A DNA stretch of 64,000 bases from Mariprofundus sp. EBB-1 (GCF_003665155.1 NZ_RCFQ01000001.1:124001-188000), one strand, 5' to 3'. Shown: positions 22,412 through 32,048, counted from the stretch's first letter. Numbers and translations: made by a program. Notes: generated by a model from the letters alone, not told the origin.

Positions 22412-23635
22412 ATGAACATTCATGAGTATCAGGCTAAGGCGCTGCTGGCCGAATTTTCTGTGCCGGTTCCCAAGGGCATTGTGGCGATGTCAGTGGCCGA
22501 GGCGGTCGCTGCTGCCACATCGCTGGCTGGCGATATCTGGGTAGTGAAAGCACAGATTCATGCCGGTGGTCGTGGCAAGGCTGGTGGTGTGCGTGTGTGT
22601 CGGTCTCTACAGGAAGTGGAATCGGTCGCTGATGCCCTGTTGGGTTCGATATTGGTAACCAAACAAACAGGTGAAGCAGGCAAACAGGTGAACAGGCTGT
22701 ATGTTGAAGAGGGCCTGGATATTGATCGTGAATTTTACCTGAGTCTACTGGTGGATAGAGAGACCGAATCGATTGCCTTTGTTGTCAGCCCAGCCGGTGG
22801 CATGGATATTGAACAGGTTGCAGCAGATACCCCGGATCAGATTATGACCGTAAAGATTGCCGGTGATGCGGTGTCGGTAACAGAGAGTGGGCGTATGGCT
22901 GCCAAGCTTGGTTTGGGCAGTGATCAATTGGAGGCGTTCCATACACTGACATCAAATGTGCATCGCATGTTCCGTCAGACAGATGCTGCCATGCTGGAGT
23001 TAAATCCATTACTGCTTACACAATCGGGTCAACTCATCGCCCTGGATGCCAAGTTTGTGCTGGATGATAACGCGCTCTACCGTCAACCTGCTATTGCTGA
23101 ACTACGTGATCTGGATGAAGAAGATCCGCGTGAAACCGAGGCATCGCGGTTTGGTTTGAATTATATCGCCCTGGATGGACATATCGGCTGCATGGTTAAT
23201 GGTGCAGGGCTTGCGATGGCCTCCATGGATATTATTCAATTGAAAGGTGGAAAACCGGCCAATTTCCTGGACGTTGGTGGCGGGGTTACGGTTGATGCTG
23301 TCTGTGAAGCCTTTAAACTGCTATTCAGTGATGAGCATGTCAAAGCGGTACTGGTGAATATTTTCGGTGGTATTGTACGTTGTGATATTATTGCCAATGG
23401 TTTGCTTGAAGCGATTAAAACCCATCCCATGCGCGTGCCGGTGGTGATGCGTCTGGTTGGTACCAATGAAAAAGAGGGCAGGGCGATTGTGAAAGATGCA
23501 GGCTTAGATGTGCGTTGGGCAGAGGATCTGGATCAGGCAGCAGAATTTGCAGTAGCTGCAGCACAGTGGGAGCAAGCATCGCTGTCCCGATGTGCGGTAG
23601 ATCAATCAGATCAAACAGGTCGAGGTTTAACATGA
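22412..23635 (+). CDS. sucC: Succinate-CoA ligase, beta subunit
   Basis: Works with SucD to convert succinyl-CoA to succinate with formation of ATP or GTP. The ATP-grasp domain starts [15 protein letters not shown] and has [17 protein letters not shown] and LELNPLL. The C-terminal ligase domain has the [20 protein letters not shown] stretch and [10 protein letters not shown]. It is 407 residues against the usual 388, with a polar C-terminal tail of about 18 residues that sits in the overlap region before sucD. The stop overlaps the sucD ATG by four bases. Confidence 0.95.
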
Positions 23636-24501
23636 GCGTACTATTGGATCGTCATACACGCGTTATTTGCCAGGGATTTACGGGCAAACAGGGCAGTTTT
23701 CATTCCGAACAGATGATCGCTTATGGCACCAGCTTTGTTGGCGGTGTCACACCGGGTAAAGGTGGTCAACGCCATCTTGAGCGTCCGGTATTTGATAGTG
23801 TAGCAGATGCTGTTGAGCAAGAGGGTGCAGAAGCAACGGTGATTTTTGTACCGCCACGTTTTGCGGCCGATGCCATTGTTGAAGCAGCGAATGCAGGGAT
23901 TAAACTGATCTGCTGCATTACCGAAGGTATTCCGGTGCAGGATATGTTGCGTGTGAAACAACAGATTGCCAATATGGATTGTACGCTGATCGGGCCGAAC
24001 TGTCCGGGTATCATCACACCGGGCGAAGCCAAGATTGGTATTATGCCGGGCCATATTCATCTACCGGGCCGTATCGGAGTCATTTCAAGATCGGGCACGT
24101 TAACCTATGAAGCTGTTGCGCAACTAACTTCTACAGGTTTGGGACAAAGCACCTGTATCGGTATGGGTGGAGACCCGATTCATGGCATGGACTTTATTGA
24201 TGCGTTAAAACTGTTCGAAGCCGATGATCAAACCGAAGGGGTAGTGATGATCGGAGAGATTGGTGGTTCGGATGAAGAACATGCCGCTGCTTATATTCGT
24301 GATCATTTTTCTAAACCAGTGGTCGCATTTATCGCTGGAGCGACAGCTCCAAAAGGTAAACGCATGGGCCATGCAGGAGCCATAATTTCCGGAGGAAAAG
24401 GTACGGCAGAAGCGAAATTTACCGCGCTGGAAACAGCCGGTGTCGCCATTGAACACAATCCAACCTTGTTGGGTAAACGTATGCTCGCATTGCTCGGTTG
24501 A
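23632..24501 (+). CDS. sucD: Succinate-CoA ligase, alpha subunit
   Basis: Carries the phosphohistidine and the CoA-binding domain. The start is the ATG in the ATGA overlap with sucC; a longer open frame upstream inside sucC is not coding. It begins [20 protein letters not shown], then [13 protein letters not shown] and [32 protein letters not shown] is the family signature. The active-site histidine is in [17 protein letters not shown]. 289 residues, full length. Confidence 0.95.
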
Positions 24502-24568: not shown

Positions 24569-26065
24569 ATGATTGCATGTCATGAGTGTGATGCACTGCA
24601 TCATCTTCAATCACTGCCCGAGCATGCTAAAGCGCATTGTTCATGCTGTGATGCGCTCTTATATGAGCATGTCTCTTCACAAGCAGTACATCATAATCTG
24701 GCCCTGCAATTCACTGCGTTGCTGTTATTTGTCATGGCCAATACATTTCCATTTATGTCATTAAAACTGGCGGGCAGGGTGGAAACGGATCATTTACTAT
24801 CCGGCCCCCTGGCGCTGTTTGATACTGGCATGAATGATATTGGTCTATTGGTTTTATTGACCAGTATTGTATTTCCACTGCTAACCATGCTTGCTTCGCT
24901 ATATCTGCTGGTGCCTGCATCACTGGGTTTACGTGCTCCGGCTATGGCATCTGTTTTTCGCCTGGTGCAGCACCTGATGCCATGGAGCCTGCTGGGTGTG
25001 TTTATGCTGGCTGTATTGATTGCTATCGTAAAATTACTTGATTTGGCAGAGATCGAAGTTGGTGTTGCCATGATGGCGTATGCGGCTCTCTTACCCGTGA
25101 GTGTGTTGGCGATGCAGGGTATGAATAGTGGGCTGTTCTGGCCGCATCAACTACATGAAGGCGCGAACATTGATGCGCCGCGCGATGGTTTAGGTCGCGC
25201 CTTGAATCGCGGGCGCTTGCATTGCCATACATGCTCACTGTTGGTGTTGCGACCCAAGTTGAAATCATCGTCGCATGAAGAAGCACATTGTCCGCGTTGT
25301 CACGACATTCTTCATGCCCGTAAGCCGAATAGCATAGCCCGCACCTGGGCCTTGTTGATTGCGGCAACTATCCTGCTTTTCCCTGCAAATATATTGCCGA
25401 TTATGACGGTAACCCAGTTAGGGCAAGGTGAGCCTAGTACGATTTTAGCGGGTGTAGAACACCTCATAAAGGCTGGCATGTGGCATCTGGGTTTGATTGT
25501 GTTTTTTGCCAGTATCATGGTGCCAGTGAGTAAATTGCTGACCTTGGTGTTTTTGTTGCTTTCTCTACACTTTAAATCCTTATGGCGCCCTTATGATCGC
25601 ACGCGTTTGTTTCGCATGACAGAAATGATCGGCTCTTGGTCTATGGTCGATATTTTTGTGATTGGCATTTTAACTTCGTTGGTCAGTATGGATGCATTGG
25701 CTTCAATCGAGCCGGGCATTGCAGCCAGCTATTTTGCCGCATCGGTGGTGTTGACGATGATGGCTGCACAGAGCTTTGATCCGCGTCTGATTTGGGATGG
25801 TATTGACCGGGATGGTATTGATCGGGATGGGATCGAACGGGATGGGATCGAACGGGATGGTATTGACAGGGATGGTATTGACAGGGATGGGATCGAACGG
25901 GATGGGATTGATCGGGATGGGATTGACCGGGATGGGATTGACCGGGATAAGATCGACGAAGCTAAGGCTCAAGAGAGGGAACACCTGAATGAACATGAAG
26001 AAACATCGGGAGAGCAGTTATTGATGCAGCAACATGGTCCAAGGTCGGAGCAGTCGCATGGGTAA
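24569..26065 (+). CDS. pqiA: PqiA-like membrane protein with C-terminal DGI(D/E)R repeats
   Basis: Inner-membrane partner of the MCE protein PqiB in lipid transport between membranes. Two PqiA modules are visible, each starting with a zinc-ribbon (CHEC..CSCC near the N-terminus; CHTC..CPRC near 215-240) and followed by four transmembrane segments. The core ends at about 408. Ten perfect or near-perfect copies of the pentapeptide DGI(D/E)R follow, then a charged tail to residue 498. That tail is not part of the family and should lie in the cytoplasm. The gene overlaps pqiB by eight bases. sucD ends 67 bases upstream. Confidence 0.88.
   Translation: MIACHECDALHHLQSLPEHAKAHCSCCDALLYEHVSSQAVHHNLALQFTALLLFVMANTFPFMSLKLAGRVETDHLLSGPLALFDTGMNDIGLLVLLTSIVFPLLTMLASLYLLVPASLGLRAPAMASVFRLVQHLMPWSLLGVFMLAVLIAIVKLLDLAEIEVGVAMMAYAALLPVSVLAMQGMNSGLFWPHQLHEGANIDAPRDGLGRALNRGRLHCHTCSLLVLRPKLKSSSHEEAHCPRCHDILHARKPNSIARTWALLIAATILLFPANILPIMTVTQLGQGEPSTILAGVEHLIKAGMWHLGLIVFFASIMVPVSKLLTLVFLLLSLHFKSLWRPYDRTRLFRMTEMIGSWSMVDIFVIGILTSLVSMDALASIEPGIAASYFAASVVLTMMAAQSFDPRLIWDGIDRDGIDRDGIERDGIERDGIDRDGIDRDGIERDGIDRDGIDRDGIDRDKIDEAKAQEREHLNEHEETSGEQLLMQQHGPRSEQSHG
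25796..25945 (+). repeat. In-frame 15-bp minisatellite in pqiA
   Basis: Ten tandem 15-bp units encode DGIDR or DGIER, with a degenerate eleventh (DKIDE) after. Units differ by a few synonymous or Asp/Glu changes, as expected for slippage and recombination. A change in copy number would keep the reading frame and only lengthen or shorten the tail. Confidence 0.95.
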
Positions 26066-27755
26066 GCAGGAAAATCACACTGAGATGGCGGGTGATGGTC
26101 AGGCTGTAGTGAAAATGCCAAGCCGTTTTTCAATGGTATGGTTGATTCCTGTTTTGACCTTGTGCATTGGCCTTTGGCTTATTGTGAAAACTATTTCAGA
26201 ACAAGGCCCTGAAATTACCATTAGTATGAAAACAGCCAATGGCATAGAGGCCGGTAAAACGCCCATTAAATATAAAGATGTGAAAATCGGAATGGTTGAA
26301 GCATTAAAATTTACGAAGGATTTCAAGCATGTGGTGTTAACGGCACGCTTAAACCCTGATGCAGAATCATTCTTGCATCGGGATACCCTCTTTTGGGTAG
26401 TGCGCCCACAACTGAGTTTACGCGGTGTTTCCGGTTTGGGTACGCTGGTCAGTGGCTCTTATATCGAGATTGATCCCGGTCATGGTTCACCGCAATACCA
26501 TTTTAAGGCTCTGGATTCCGCTCCCATTGTAAAATCGGATTCAGATGGTGTGCGCGTGACACTGTTATCCGATAAGTTGGGATCTTTGGATGTTGGCTCT
26601 CCGGTCTATTATCAGGGTATTCAGGCCGGTGAAGTGCTTGGTTATGAACTATCCAATGATAAACATAGTATTTTTGTTCATGCCTTTGTGCGCTCGCCAT
26701 ACGATGGTTTAGTGCATGGTAATAGCCATTTCTGGAATGTCAGTGGTATTGATCTGACCATGGGTGCTGATGGCGTGCAACTGCGCACCACGTCACTGCA
26801 ATCGATGCTGTATGGCGGCATTGCCTTTGATTCACAGAAAAAAGCAGATAGTCCGCTTGAAGATGCGGAGGATCTCGTCTTTACCTTGTATAAAAATTAC
26901 GATGAAATTATTGCTAAAACCTATACGAGAAAAATTCGTTTTGTGGTCTATTTTGAGAAATCGGTGCGTGGCTTGAATGTGAATGCGCCGGTGGAATTTA
27001 AAGGTATTCAGGTCGGTAAGGTTGTAGATGTGCGGCTGGAATTCAATCGTGCTGATGTCAGTTTTCGTATCCCTGTGATCATAGAAATCGAGCCGGAACG
27101 GATCGTGGAAAACAACGAGGGGGCCGACAGTACATCGGATCAGGTATTGGCCAGACTGGTGGCGCGTGGGCTGCGGGCCCAATTGGAAACTGGCAGTTTA
27201 CTAACAGGAAAACTGTTTGTATCACTGGATATGCATCCTGATACACCGATTCGTTTGTTGGCTGATGGACGCAGTGAATTACCTGAGATTCCGTCTATTG
27301 CCGGTGGTTTTGATCAAATCACAACATCACTGCAGAGTATTTTGACCAAGCTGGATAAAGTGAAAACCGATAAGATCGGTGAGGATCTGGCCAGTCTGGT
27401 GCATAGCAGTAATAATTTAATCAATGGTTCCGCCACCAAAGAATCGATTGCTGATTTGCGCGCTTCGCTGAGTGCATTCCGGCATGTGATTGAATCATTG
27501 GATCAGCATGCTGAACCGATGGCGGATAATCTGGATAAAGCGTTGAATTCAGGGCGCAGTACTTTGGAGCAGGCTGAAAAAACGCTGCGCAGTATTAATG
27601 ACACACTGGATCCGGCATCGCCACTGCAATATAGAGTGAATCAATTGAGTCAGGACTTGTCGGACATGGCGCGTGCGATCCGATCATTTGTTGATCTGCT
27701 TGAGCGTCATCCCAACGCCGTGTTGTTTGGTAAACCAAAATCAGGAGAGCAATAA
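26058..27755 (+). CDS. pqiB: PqiB-like MCE-domain protein
   Basis: Predicted to be anchored in the inner membrane and to form a periplasmic hollow needle or tube for lipids. One transmembrane helix (about 23-42, MVWLIPVLTLCIGLWLIVK) is followed by three MCE domains at about 47-140, 165-225 and 285-385. The first has GIEAGKTPIKYKDVKIGMVE. Long helices near the C-terminus (SIADLRASLSAFRHVIES) would form the needle. The 565 residues are close to E. coli PqiB. The ATG lies inside the end of pqiA (overlap 8). pqiC follows with overlapping codons. Confidence 0.92.
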   Translation: MGKQENHTEMAGDGQAVVKMPSRFSMVWLIPVLTLCIGLWLIVKTISEQGPEITISMKTANGIEAGKTPIKYKDVKIGMVEALKFTKDFKHVVLTARLNPDAESFLHRDTLFWVVRPQLSLRGVSGLGTLVSGSYIEIDPGHGSPQYHFKALDSAPIVKSDSDGVRVTLLSDKLGSLDVGSPVYYQGIQAGEVLGYELSNDKHSIFVHAFVRSPYDGLVHGNSHFWNVSGIDLTMGADGVQLRTTSLQSMLYGGIAFDSQKKADSPLEDAEDLVFTLYKNYDEIIAKTYTRKIRFVVYFEKSVRGLNVNAPVEFKGIQVGKVVDVRLEFNRADVSFRIPVIIEIEPERIVENNEGADSTSDQVLARLVARGLRAQLETGSLLTGKLFVSLDMHPDTPIRLLADGRSELPEIPSIAGGFDQITTSLQSILTKLDKVKTDKIGEDLASLVHSSNNLINGSATKESIADLRASLSAFRHVIESLDQHAEPMADNLDKALNSGRSTLEQAEKTLRSINDTLDPASPLQYRVNQLSQDLSDMARAIRSFVDLLERHPNAVLFGKPKSGEQ

Positions 27756-28381
27756 TGAGAGCCTTGTATCATCGTGACGTACGCTATCTGTTGTCCTTTT
27801 TGTTTATCATGATTGTAGCCGGATGCAGTTCCACGCCAACCCAATATTATGTGTTGAATACAGTCGCTTCTGTGCAGCAGAACAGCAGCAGTGATGCATC
27901 TGACACAGCCACCAAGCATCAGCTTGCCATCAGGCAACTGGAGATTCCCCGTTATCTGGATCGCCCTCGCATCGTGAGTAGGGATGCAGAGAATCATCTC
28001 CGCATCGCTGAATATCATCAGTGGGGCGGGCGACTGCGGGATGATGTTGCCCGCACCTTGAGTGATGATCTGGCTGAATATCTGGATTCGATGAGTGTGA
28101 TCACGGCACCATTTCCAGGCTCTATGCATGCGGATATTTCATTGTTGATTGATATTCGACAATTTGAACGACTGGCGGATGGACGCGTTCATTTGAAAGT
28201 GCGTTGGCATATTCAGCAGACAGGCAAGCAATCACAGAGTTACTTTCATCATATAATCAGTGAAACCAATGTCTCTGAACACGACTATGCCGCGATGGCG
28301 GGAGCAATGTCGCAACTGCTGGCTACCTTGTCTGAGAAAATGGCGATAGAAATTAAGCGCCTTGCAGAGCTGGATAGATAA
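27755..28381 (+). CDS. pqiC: PqiC-like ABC-type transport auxiliary lipoprotein
   Basis: Outer-membrane lipoprotein expected to receive the PqiB conduit. The signal peptide ends in the lipobox IVAGC. The mature part starts SSTPTQYYVLNTV, characteristic of PqiC/MlaD auxiliary lipoproteins. RQLEIPRYLDRPRIVSR and YHQWGGRLRDDVARTLSDDL are strong family motifs. 208 residues. The start overlaps the end of pqiB, and the LolA-like gene follows after five bases, so pqiABC and the next two genes look like one operon. Confidence 0.92.
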   Translation: MRALYHRDVRYLLSFLFIMIVAGCSSTPTQYYVLNTVASVQQNSSSDASDTATKHQLAIRQLEIPRYLDRPRIVSRDAENHLRIAEYHQWGGRLRDDVARTLSDDLAEYLDSMSVITAPFPGSMHADISLLIDIRQFERLADGRVHLKVRWHIQQTGKQSQSYFHHIISETNVSEHDYAAMAGAMSQLLATLSEKMAIEIKRLAELDR

Positions 28382-28386
28382 TCATC

Positions 28387-29334
28387 GTGTTTACTTTAGA
28401 TCGCGCTATGGCGGCCTGGTTGTTGAAGCCCGGGCATAGAGCGATCTATGTGATTGCATTGGCTGTGATGGTGAGTTGTAGCATTCAAACCAGTGTGATG
28501 GCCGCTGAGATGCCGTTAACGCATAATAATCAAGTACAGCAGCCAGCGTTGACCGGGGAAGATATCATTATGGAATCGCTTCGCCGCCATGAGTTATATC
28601 CGTATGTGTATGAAGAACAGTCACTGATACTGATGGATGCCAAGCAACATCGGGATGTAAGGCGTATGAAACGTTATTCCAGATTAGAGCCGGGTGGCAC
28701 ATTTAAGGCGATGCTTACATTCACCTATCCTGAATCAATCGCCGGAGCAGCTCTGTTGTTTACCCGCCAACAAGATGGTGAACGTAAAAAGCGCTTTTAC
28801 CTACCGGCGCTTGGTACGCATCTGATTGAATATACCGGGGGTGTGGCAGGTAGCCAGATGCTTGGTAGTGAATTTTCATTGGAAGATCTCATGCCTGAAG
28901 ATATGGACGCATTTGAATATCATCGGATGAAGGATGTAATCGATGGTGATAACGCCTATTTTGTCGTGCAGGCCATTTCGAAGCGTGATAAGACAAACGT
29001 ACGTCGCAGCTATGCAGAGCGAAAGTTGCTCATCCGGCAGGATAATTTTTTTGTGACGCATGTCGATTACCTGGATCAAAAGGGGGCACTGGTGAAAAGG
29101 CAGACCCGGCATGATATCCATCAGGTGAATGGTGAAATGTGGCGTGCGGATATGATGATGGCAGAAAACTTCCTCAATCATCATCGCTCTATTTTGAAGG
29201 TCGATCGGCGCGTCTATTCCAGTGATTATGTGCCGGAGTTCATTTTTGATATTTCGTCTTTTGTACCAGCAACCAGTCAGCCTGCAGCAGAGTCTTCAGA
29301 TCCGAACCCTGAAGTAGCCGAGGAGGCACCATGA
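28387..29334 (+). CDS. Outer-membrane lipoprotein-sorting-like protein (LolA superfamily)
   Basis: Predicted periplasmic lipid-binding protein. An N-terminal signal peptide extends to about residue 38 (VIALAVMVSCS... MAAE). The domain that follows has ILMDAKQHRDVRRMKRYSR, ESIAGAALLFTRQ and FYLPALGTHLIEYTGG, typical of the LolA-like proteins that sit beside MMPL/RND exporters. It ends with a Pro/Glu-rich tail. The start is a GTG at 28387; an ATG nine codons in is the alternative. The stop overlaps the RND gene by ATGA, so the two products probably act together. Confidence 0.82.
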   Translation: MFTLDRAMAAWLLKPGHRAIYVIALAVMVSCSIQTSVMAAEMPLTHNNQVQQPALTGEDIIMESLRRHELYPYVYEEQSLILMDAKQHRDVRRMKRYSRLEPGGTFKAMLTFTYPESIAGAALLFTRQQDGERKKRFYLPALGTHLIEYTGGVAGSQMLGSEFSLEDLMPEDMDAFEYHRMKDVIDGDNAYFVVQAISKRDKTNVRRSYAERKLLIRQDNFFVTHVDYLDQKGALVKRQTRHDIHQVNGEMWRADMMMAENFLNHHRSILKVDRRVYSSDYVPEFIFDISSFVPATSQPAAESSDPNPEVAEEAP

Positions 29335-32048
29335 ATCGAATACTTATGTTCGGCTTGCATCATCGCTTGTTATTGCTACTGGTGCTGACTGTTTTGACTG
29401 CCCTGGCCGCAACAGGCATGCAGCATCTGCATATTGATACGGGAACGGAAAACATGGTTGCCAAGGGTTCTGCGAAAATGCAGATCTATGAATCGGTAGT
29501 TGAAGAGTTCGGATCTGATAATCAAACACTGATCTTTACTCGGGATCCCTCCTTGTGGACTACGGATAAACTCCATGCATTGAAAGCGCTGCATGTGCGA
29601 CTGGCTTCACTGGAGTCGGTACAGCGGGTGGAAGACATTTTCACACTGCGCAATTTGCGTGGCAAACAAGACGCTGTCAGCTCAAAATTATTGATGGATC
29701 ATATCCCTGAAAATCAGAAAGAAGTTGATCAGCTAAAAGAAAACGTGCTCTATAACCCTTTGGTGAAGGGCAATCTTGTTTCAGCAGAAGGTAACGCGCT
29801 TGCAATGATTGTGACGGTTCAACCCGCTGCCATGAAAACACTCGGTCATGCCGGCGTGTATGAAGCGATACAGCAGGCCATTGAACCATCAGCTGAACAT
29901 TTTGAACGCCTGTTTCAAATTGGTTCGCCGCGCATTCAGATGGAAATGGAATCAACCCTGTTTACTGACATGCGTACACTCGCACCGCTTTCTGCCGCTG
30001 TTATTTTGTTGGTGATTTTATTGTTTATGCGCAGTACAGCAGCAGGTTTTATTCCGCTGGTTACCGCTGGCATTAGTCTGATCTGGACCATGGGTATGAT
30101 GGGCTGGGCTGGTATTCCGGTGAATATCCTCAGTGCAATGTTACCAACTTTGATTATTGTTATCGGATCGACGGAAGATACCCATTTAATTGGTTCATAT
30201 TTAGATGCGCGTAGAGCATATCCGGATCAGGAACCAGAATTCTGCGTGCGCAAGATGTTGCGTAAGATGGGGTTGCCGCTGCTCTTGACCATTTCCACCA
30301 CGGTGCTTGGATTTGCTGGAAATATATTCAGCAGCATGGAGTTGATCCGTGATTTTGCCATTGCATCCAGCTTTGCCATGTTGGCCAATGGATTGGTGAC
30401 CATTTTGCTGGTGCCTGCGTTGCTCGTCATGATGGGTTCATCTAAAAAATCCGGACAGCCAGCCACCGAAGGCGGTTTCTTATCCAGACTTGTCTTAAAA
30501 TTGAACCAGAAATCGAATCTTTCCATACAGCGTCTATTGCTTGGTGCGACGTTGCTCTTGTGTGCATTCTTCCTGTTTGAGGCTTCTAAACTGTATGTGA
30601 CCAATGATCCGATGTCGTATTTTAAACAGGATCGTCCATTGATCAGGGATGCAAGTGAGGTGAATCAATACCTTGCAGGCATTAAAACATTTTTCATCAG
30701 TGTGCAATCGGATAAAGAAGAGGCTTTTTTGCAGCCCCGCAACCTGCGTAAACTCGAAGAGCTTGCAGATTTTATCGGTAAGCAGGGTGTGTTTGATCGC
30801 ACCGTATCTCTGGTTGATTACTTGAAACTGATGAATCGCGAATTCCATGCCGGTGATCCACAATGGTATCAGTTGCCTGCCAATAAAGAATTGGTATCCC
30901 AATATCTGTTATTCATGCACCGGCAGGAATTGCAACGTTATGTCAGCCATGATTACAGGCGCGGTGTGATTGTAGTACGCCACCATATTAGTGACTCCAA
31001 TATGCTGAACCGAAACATTGATGAATTGCGTCAAGTGGCTCAGGAGATTGCAGGGGCGGAGCTACAAGTCGATATTGTTGGTGAGAATCTGATGATCAAC
31101 GAAGAGGCCGATACCTTGTTGCATGCCCAGGTTGAATCATTGATGATTTTTCTTGGTATTATATTTTTGCTGATGTCAGCCATGTTCACCTCCTTCAAGG
31201 GTGGTTTGATTGCCATGGTGCCCAGTGTGATTCCCATTATTCTGATGTTTGGTGTGATGGGCCTGCTGGGTATTCCCCTGAATCCCGGTACAGCGATGGT
31301 GGCAGTGATTGCCATTGGTATCGCCATCGATAGTACCATTCATATGCTTTCCAGTTACAATAAACATAGCCGTATGATGGGCGATTCGGTGCAAGCGGCA
31401 CAACAAACGGTACGTGAAGAAGCCTTGCCGATGATTACTACCAGCGTGGCACTATCGCTTGGTTTTGGTATTTTACTGGCCTCTGATTTCGCCATTATCG
31501 GCCAGTTCGGTGCCTTGGCTGCGGCCACCATGCTGTTTGCGCTGTTTGCCAATCTGATTGTTACACCATTGATTATGTCCCGCGTTCGATTGGTTGGTCT
31601 GTATGATATTTTGGCCTTGTCGGTGGATAAAGAGTCATTAAGTGGCTGTCAGCTATTTCATGAGATGTCAGATTATCAGATTCGTAAAGCTATGCTGATC
31701 TCCGAAGTGAATGATTATAGTGAAGGCGCAAAAATTATTGAGCAGGGCTGTTTGGATCGGAGCATGTATCTGCTGATCAAGGGTGAAGTGGATGTTATTC
31801 GTCATTCACAGGATGGCGATGAGATCATTGCGCGATTGAAACCCGGTGAAGTGTTTGGTGAGATTGCTTTTGTACGTGAGATACGCCGAACTGCAGATGT
31901 GTGTGCGGTAAATTCAGTATCAGTGCTGCGGTTTGATTGTGAACGATTAAAACGGGATCTGCGTTTTTTCCCGCATATTGTTGCAAAATTAAATTTCAAT
32001 ATCAGTTATATACTCGGTGAACGCTTAGCCAATACGTTTAAGGATTAA
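29331..32048 (+). CDS. RND/MMPL-type transporter fused to a cyclic-nucleotide-binding domain
   Basis: Predicted inner-membrane lipid or hydrophobe exporter driven by proton motive force. One N-terminal helix, a periplasmic loop (about 35-210) and a helical bundle (LSAAVILLVILLFMRST...) make the first half. A second equivalent half follows from about 395, with VESLMIFLGIIFLLMSAMF. At about 760-905 a cNMP-binding domain is fused: EQGCLDRSMYLLIKGEVDVI, then PGEVFGEIAFVREIRRTADV. The GEIA...RTA core of the phosphate-binding cassette is intact. Its position at the end of the pqiABC operon suggests a lipid substrate, gated by cAMP or a related ligand. That is inference; the ligand is unknown. Confidence 0.88.
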   Translation: MNRILMFGLHHRLLLLLVLTVLTALAATGMQHLHIDTGTENMVAKGSAKMQIYESVVEEFGSDNQTLIFTRDPSLWTTDKLHALKALHVRLASLESVQRVEDIFTLRNLRGKQDAVSSKLLMDHIPENQKEVDQLKENVLYNPLVKGNLVSAEGNALAMIVTVQPAAMKTLGHAGVYEAIQQAIEPSAEHFERLFQIGSPRIQMEMESTLFTDMRTLAPLSAAVILLVILLFMRSTAAGFIPLVTAGISLIWTMGMMGWAGIPVNILSAMLPTLIIVIGSTEDTHLIGSYLDARRAYPDQEPEFCVRKMLRKMGLPLLLTISTTVLGFAGNIFSSMELIRDFAIASSFAMLANGLVTILLVPALLVMMGSSKKSGQPATEGGFLSRLVLKLNQKSNLSIQRLLLGATLLLCAFFLFEASKLYVTNDPMSYFKQDRPLIRDASEVNQYLAGIKTFFISVQSDKEEAFLQPRNLRKLEELADFIGKQGVFDRTVSLVDYLKLMNREFHAGDPQWYQLPANKELVSQYLLFMHRQELQRYVSHDYRRGVIVVRHHISDSNMLNRNIDELRQVAQEIAGAELQVDIVGENLMINEEADTLLHAQVESLMIFLGIIFLLMSAMFTSFKGGLIAMVPSVIPIILMFGVMGLLGIPLNPGTAMVAVIAIGIAIDSTIHMLSSYNKHSRMMGDSVQAAQQTVREEALPMITTSVALSLGFGILLASDFAIIGQFGALAAATMLFALFANLIVTPLIMSRVRLVGLYDILALSVDKESLSGCQLFHEMSDYQIRKAMLISEVNDYSEGAKIIEQGCLDRSMYLLIKGEVDVIRHSQDGDEIIARLKPGEVFGEIAFVREIRRTADVCAVNSVSVLRFDCERLKRDLRFFPHIVAKLNFNISYILGERLANTFKD

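Follow-up and report, generated by a model that had tools for sequence, protein, structure and literature searches.

In Escherichia coli, the Pqi system consists of a PqiA-type membrane protein, the triple-MCE protein PqiB and the lipoprotein PqiC. No energiser of this system is known, and PqiA must act passively, through an unidentified ATPase or with the proton gradient (2024 PqiC paper, PMC10897342). In this study, a window of 64,000 nucleotides (contig C1:124001-188000) from a 2.88-Mb Mariprofundus-type genome (Zetaproteobacteria) was analysed. The host is a marine iron-oxidising bacterium. Five plus-strand genes at 24569-32048 of the window include the same three genes in the same order as in E. 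coli, but a coupled LolA-like carrier and an RND/MMPL pump with a C-terminal cyclic nucleotide-binding (CNB) domain are added. It is established here that these genes form one conserved unit. All of them had been named in a first-pass annotation of this DNA and were confirmed on the plus strand by profile matches. The six genes counted there were a miscount; there are five, and the neighbouring sucD and CheB/CheR-PAS genes are unlinked outside close relatives.

An alignment of only the pump, which carries no information on neighbouring genes, was used to scan 84,980 species genomes and yielded 80 loci. The matches extended to the end of the CNB domain in all but a few loci, most of which were cut by contig ends. 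Upstream genes were scored in the 53 loci of the window's clade in which 4.7 kb or more of sequence precedes the pump. Both pqiA and pqiB were just upstream of the pump in 53/53 of these loci. With a strict choice of open reading frames (ORFs), pqiA, pqiB, pqiC and lolA were all upstream on the same strand in 48 loci. In the remaining five, the genes were masked by overlapping ORFs, and the unfiltered ORF list contained pqiA and pqiB in all five. Within this test set, pqiC was not seen in L100, and lolA was not seen as a separate ORF in L113. Among Zetaproteobacteria, the fusion was found in 13/78 genomes, with pqiB in 13/13 and adjacent to the fusion wherever contigs allow. The Pqi-linked loci belong to Pseudomonadota, Thermodesulfobacteriota, Nitrospinota, Planctomycetota (Anammoxibacter), Verrucomicrobiota and deltaproteobacteria labelled Myxococcota. 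The phyla number five or six, because the loci named Myxococcota by NCBI group with Desulfobacterota here; most loci are metagenome bins, and single cases may be mis-binned. Since the gene order is kept across these phyla, chance can be ruled out. Thus the gene order read in the window recurs across genomes, and random co-occurrence fails as an explanation.

Across 49 complete operons, all four junctions had a median gap of -4 bp, a sign of translational coupling. In the window, pqiA and pqiB overlap (the start of pqiB is more likely at 26058, giving an overlap of 8 bp), pqiB and pqiC overlap by 1 bp in TAATG, pqiC and the lolA-like gene are 5 bp apart, and the lolA-like and pump genes overlap by 4 bp in ATGA. 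The junctions had been described earlier as five bases or overlapping, and this was borne out. There is no room for a promoter or terminator inside the unit because the intergenic space is too small, and promoter-like matches in the region were no commoner than in shuffles (16 versus 21.4 +/- 5.2). For 54 loci, the RND part of the pump and PqiB were each used to build a tree with FastTree; some of the branches are long. The two trees had 37/51 splits in common, and their path distances were correlated (r = 0.84; highest value among 1000 permutations, 0.18). In both trees, Nitrospinota fell inside one gammaproteobacterial group, and the planctomycete locus was paired with a verrucomicrobial one. 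This indicates that the unit was inherited, and apparently transferred between phyla, as a whole.

Two further genomes (G144 and G105) have the pump next to the pqi genes in divergent orientation, as does L065, a Magnetococcales locus under the 4.7-kb limit in which pqiAB diverges from the pump. These cases show that proximity outlasts rearrangement. In the rearranged locus of G105, a 520-residue protein (L170:8566-10125) lies between pqiA and lolA; it apparently carries a signal peptide and matches no Pfam family. Beyond the five genes, no conserved partner was found repeatedly in the Pqi-linked loci. Metallo-beta-lactamase-fold neighbours were found in 11 loci at scattered distances. When plasmids were scanned with the pump, one full-length relative was found, in Thalassospira. 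Frequencies were counted in 299 Pseudomonadota genomes drawn with G000 as the centre. A PqiB-type MCE protein (a count that includes LetB) was present in 134/299, and the pump in 11/299, eight of these in the window's class. Outside that class, the frequency of the pump was near 1%; the phylum to which Desulfobacula belongs had it at about 3%, mostly as a barrel type described below. The earlier statement that Pqi conduits and MMPL exporters are usually separate agrees with these counts.

Gene content and order, tight coupling and joint inheritance are thus observed, as are the invariant CNB ligand residues given below. We believe, with a slight leaning in its favour, that a proton-driven, cyclic-nucleotide-regulated pump and a periplasmic carrier work with the PqiABC conduit in supplying the outer membrane with a lipid or another hydrophobic compound. 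Powered by the proton gradient, the RND/MMPL pump would extract this molecule from the inner membrane and pass it to the LolA-like protein in the periplasm. From there, the cargo or a coupled lipid would reach the outer membrane through the PqiA-PqiB-PqiC conduit, and the pump would be switched by cytosolic cAMP or cGMP bound at the CNB domain. We infer the proton drive and the identity of the ligand. The cargo is likely a lipid or hydrophobic molecule, and an outward direction and physical contact of pump, carrier and conduit are plausible.

The CNB domain had been noted earlier as a C-terminal part of the RND/MMPL protein with an intact GEIA...RTA core, and this reading was upheld. The motif in the window's pump is FGEIAFVREIRRTADV. 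The PF00027 match (61 bits against a gathering score of 27.5) and the G-E and R of the phosphate-binding cassette place the domain in the family. G839, G843, E844 and R853 were identical in 76/76 pumps, down to 32% overall identity. T854 was T in 71 and S in 3 of the 76, and A855 varied once. G843, E844 and R853 match the positions that bind ribose and phosphate in CRP, PKA and HCN domains. Profile matches included the domains of PKA (PKA-R), PKG, SthK and CRP. The domain likely binds a cyclic nucleotide, and cAMP and cGMP cannot be told apart as ligand from the sequence. Six class III nucleotidyl cyclases and 15 matches to CNB domains were found in the genome of the window, so a messenger is probably present in the host. 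The domain might instead be a structural or oligomerisation module, or bind another nucleotide, without sensing a second messenger; most loci have no cyclase in the unit, in keeping with this. We consider it quite improbable, as G843, E844 and R853 are invariant, and the same residues strengthen the suggestion that a nucleotide gates the pump.

In five of about 80 loci, a search restricted to catalytic domains found a class III cyclase no more than 2 kb downstream of the pump, and never one upstream, a pattern noticed after looking. L101 and L105, two of the five, are sister loci. The idea that the unit regularly includes a cyclase of its own was rejected as a rule, given these few loci; the downstream cyclases are only suggestive.

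The AlphaFold model of the fusion (predicted local distance difference test, pLDDT, 83.7; predicted template modelling score 0.76) has 12 transmembrane (TM) helices, two porter domains and a CNB beta roll with a C helix. With 12 TM helices, the C terminus should be cytosolic. The 12-TM, MmpL/NPC1-like fold is predicted with good confidence. The top Foldseek ranks were MmpL4/MmpL5 (siderophore/drug exporters), NPC1L1/NPC1 (sterol), MmpL3 (mycolate) and HpnN (hopanoid), and identity to the best-matching solved members was about 13-17%. Twelve TM helices, two periplasmic porter domains and the MMPL signature assign the pump to the MMPL/HAE3 branch of RND proteins, with the fold as a prediction. 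The score on the HAE3 model TIGR00921 (201 bits, E 2e-59) was under the curated cut-off of 351.9, and the pump represents a separate subfamily. The TM4 acids E282 and D283 were kept in 72/76 and 67/76 pumps and D667 of TM10 in 74/76; these residues possibly form a proton relay. A membrane-fusion protein and an outer-membrane factor are absent from the window's operon, which sets it apart from AcrAB-TolC-type tripartite pumps. The LolA-like gene matches PF17131 LolA_like, and its likeness to the Lol pathway is one of fold class only; neither LolCDE nor LolB is in the unit, and the protein is not placed in Lol lipoprotein sorting. An RND/MMPL paralogue without a CNB domain (G000:C34:65411-67684, 28% identical) has relatives in many Zetaproteobacteria, and a cyclase (C34:70815) lies about 3 kb from it.

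Characterised bacterial RND/MmpL proteins are exporters, and LolA-type carriers run from the inner to the outer membrane. Both directions conflict with an inward route, in which the RND protein would release into or across the inner membrane what PqiABC and the LolA-like protein had imported from the outer membrane, a lipid or a hydrophobic nutrient. This route is very unlikely in our estimate, even though the fold neighbours include NPC1, a sterol transporter and not a bacterial-type exporter. A further point for it comes from Thalassolituus oleivorans TOL_3187/3188, an MMPL protein with a LolA-like domain and an adjacent porin, which are induced on a long-chain alkane (42-fold for TOL_3187; PMC6304351).

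Several facts weigh against the export line proposed above. The mechanism, regulation and directionality of Pqi have been called enigmatic, even for E. coli (PMC10897342). RND families also move hydrophobic molecules that are not lipids, and other nucleotides can be ligands of CNB domains whose motifs are intact. Ten zetaproteobacterial genomes other than the 13 with the fusion have pqiABC without lolA or the pump. Four of these ten nest within the linked zetaproteobacterial group in the PqiB tree, so the pump was apparently lost and Pqi can persist without it. The pump is not obligatory for pqiABC, which some relatives keep alone. The converse was found in a sister clade (Nitrospirota, Thalassospira, Novispirillum and several Desulfobacterota), where lolA-pump-CNB is present without adjacent Pqi. 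The two absences speak against one obligate machine.

In the sister clade, lolA-pump-CNB mostly precedes a gene for an uncharacterised secreted protein that is about 460 residues long and matches no Pfam family. AlphaFold models this protein as all-beta, with low confidence (pLDDT 51), and the best PDB matches were porins; because of the low confidence, these matches say only "outer-membrane beta-barrel", which the protein probably is. The Pqi-linked and barrel-linked states are separated by one change on the pump tree, indicating that the lolA-pump-CNB core took either the Pqi conduit or the barrel as its outer-membrane partner. It is as if the pump-carrier core needs a partner that reaches the outer membrane. 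The barrel and the pump-less Zetaproteobacteria would also fit two separate pathways under one promoter, with PqiABC serving envelope integrity, the LolA-pump pair exporting another hydrophobic product, and both responding to the same stress without handing over cargo. A Desulfobacula genome (G335) with a Pqi-type cluster and a second lolA-pump cluster points the same way. We regard this explanation as unlikely, since the order, the tight coupling in all testable clade members, the joint transfer and the proximity after rearrangement exceed what co-regulation usually needs. Returning to the export line with PqiABC, a broader form of it can be put forward, tentatively and as a possibility only. 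A second-messenger-controlled lipid export line, as an envelope machine not described before, would exist across phyla. In it, an RND pump driven by protons and switched by a cyclic nucleotide would supply energy to an MCE tunnel by way of a dedicated LolA-like shuttle, and Pqi and the barrel would be interchangeable outer-membrane partners of the pump-carrier core.

The PqiA, triple-MCE PqiB and PqiC lipoprotein encoded in one operon make the first three genes a PqiABC set. PqiB scored 471 bits on NCBIfam PqiB, under the E. coli-type cut-off of 525, and also matches PDB 5UVN and LetB/YebT by sequence similarity. Its MCE domains are at about 26205-26480, 26547-26780 and 26931-27230. An in-frame 15-bp tandem repeat in pqiA (25794-25956, plus strand; Tandem Repeats Finder) encodes the unit DGI[D/E]R about ten times over in the C-terminal tail of the protein. 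In L032, whose pump is 99% identical, there are about two units and PqiA is about 40 residues shorter; the array therefore alters its length quickly. A second MCE protein, with a single MCE domain, and a lipoprotein flank the operon in L072, L082, L086, L087 and L121, from a few hundred bases to several kb away and mostly on the opposite strand. In the window, sucD ends 67 bp upstream of the unit and the CheB/CheR-PAS gene is 179 bp downstream. Co-transcription of mdh-sucCD as part of the system was rejected, as this context is common only to the window and three close Mariprofundus relatives. The CheB/CheR-PAS gene was rejected as a sixth member because it is not conserved. The features are collected in Table 1.

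Table 1. Coordinates of the five-gene unit in the window and of related features at other loci.
Feature	Coordinates	Strand	Description	Evidence
pqiA	24569-26065	+	Inner-membrane PqiA/LetA-type transporter subunit, 498 aa	PF04403 5e-89; TIGR00155 296 bits, cut-off 260
pqiB	26034-27755	+	Triple-MCE periplasmic conduit protein, 573 aa from 26034	PF02470, three stretches; NCBIfam PqiB 3.8e-141
pqiC	27755-28381	+	Outer-membrane lipoprotein, 208 aa, lipobox VAGC	PF03886 4e-34; pqiC model 2.2e-15
lolA-like	28387-29334	+	Secreted periplasmic carrier-type protein, 315 aa	PF17131 2.7e-24; PDB 3bk5, 9tp6
RND/MMPL-CNB fusion	29331-32048	+	905 residues	PF03176 1.3e-30; PF00027 1.1e-16 at residues 795-873
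Pump part of fusion	29331-31610	+	12 predicted TM helices, two porter domains	PF03176, AlphaFold, Foldseek
Cytoplasmic CNB domain plus C helix	31701-32042	+	Residues 791-904 of fusion	PF00027, invariance, profile matches
CNB ligand-site motif	31857-31895	+	G843-E844...R853-T854-A855	
sucD	23626-24501	+	After mdh and sucC; outside the system, upstream neighbour in close relatives only	
Cyclase	L059:10609-12012	same as pump	60 bp downstream of pump	
Cyclase	L120:12695-13294	convergent	24 bp from pump, broken up	
Cyclase	L101:7520-8545		215 bp downstream, carries FHA domain	
Cyclase	L084:13759-16806		1.0 kb downstream	
Cyclase	L105:14516-15865		1.7 kb downstream, carries FHA domain	
Family of about 460 residues	L124:12628-14010		Directly after lolA-pump-CNB; homologues in L031, L107, L108, L125, L127-L134, L171, L177, L179-L183	

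No published description of the pqiABC-lolA-RND-CNB combination was found in the open-access literature, and its novelty is provisional because the search was limited to such papers. The operon offers candidates for the power source and the regulation of Pqi, and the power, control and direction of Pqi become testable within one operon. Several known systems resemble parts of it. Brucella Mpc (a chimeric Mla-Pqi system) and the MCE-ABC operons of Xanthomonas and Legionella also join an MCE conduit and a PqiC-like lipoprotein to an energised inner-membrane partner, but their energiser is an MlaFE-type ATP-binding cassette (ABC) transporter (PMC12436622, PMC10897342), whereas the Mariprofundus unit has an RND pump. 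The MmpL/HAE3 RND proteins (MmpL3/4/5 and the hopanoid exporter HpnN) have the same 12-TM, two-porter fold and Pfam MMPL family, but the pump of the operon has a C-terminal CNB domain and an MCE-conduit partner. In Thalassolituus, the LolA-like and MMPL parts are likewise coupled with a predicted porin; there, LolA is fused to MMPL and no CNB domain or Pqi genes are reported, and the pair may be related to the barrel clade. The CNB domains of CRP, PKA, HCN and SthK have the same beta roll, phosphate-binding cassette and C helix, whereas the Mariprofundus domain is fused to an RND transporter. If the proposal is true, the operon would be an unusual instance of envelope lipid traffic directly under second-messenger control.

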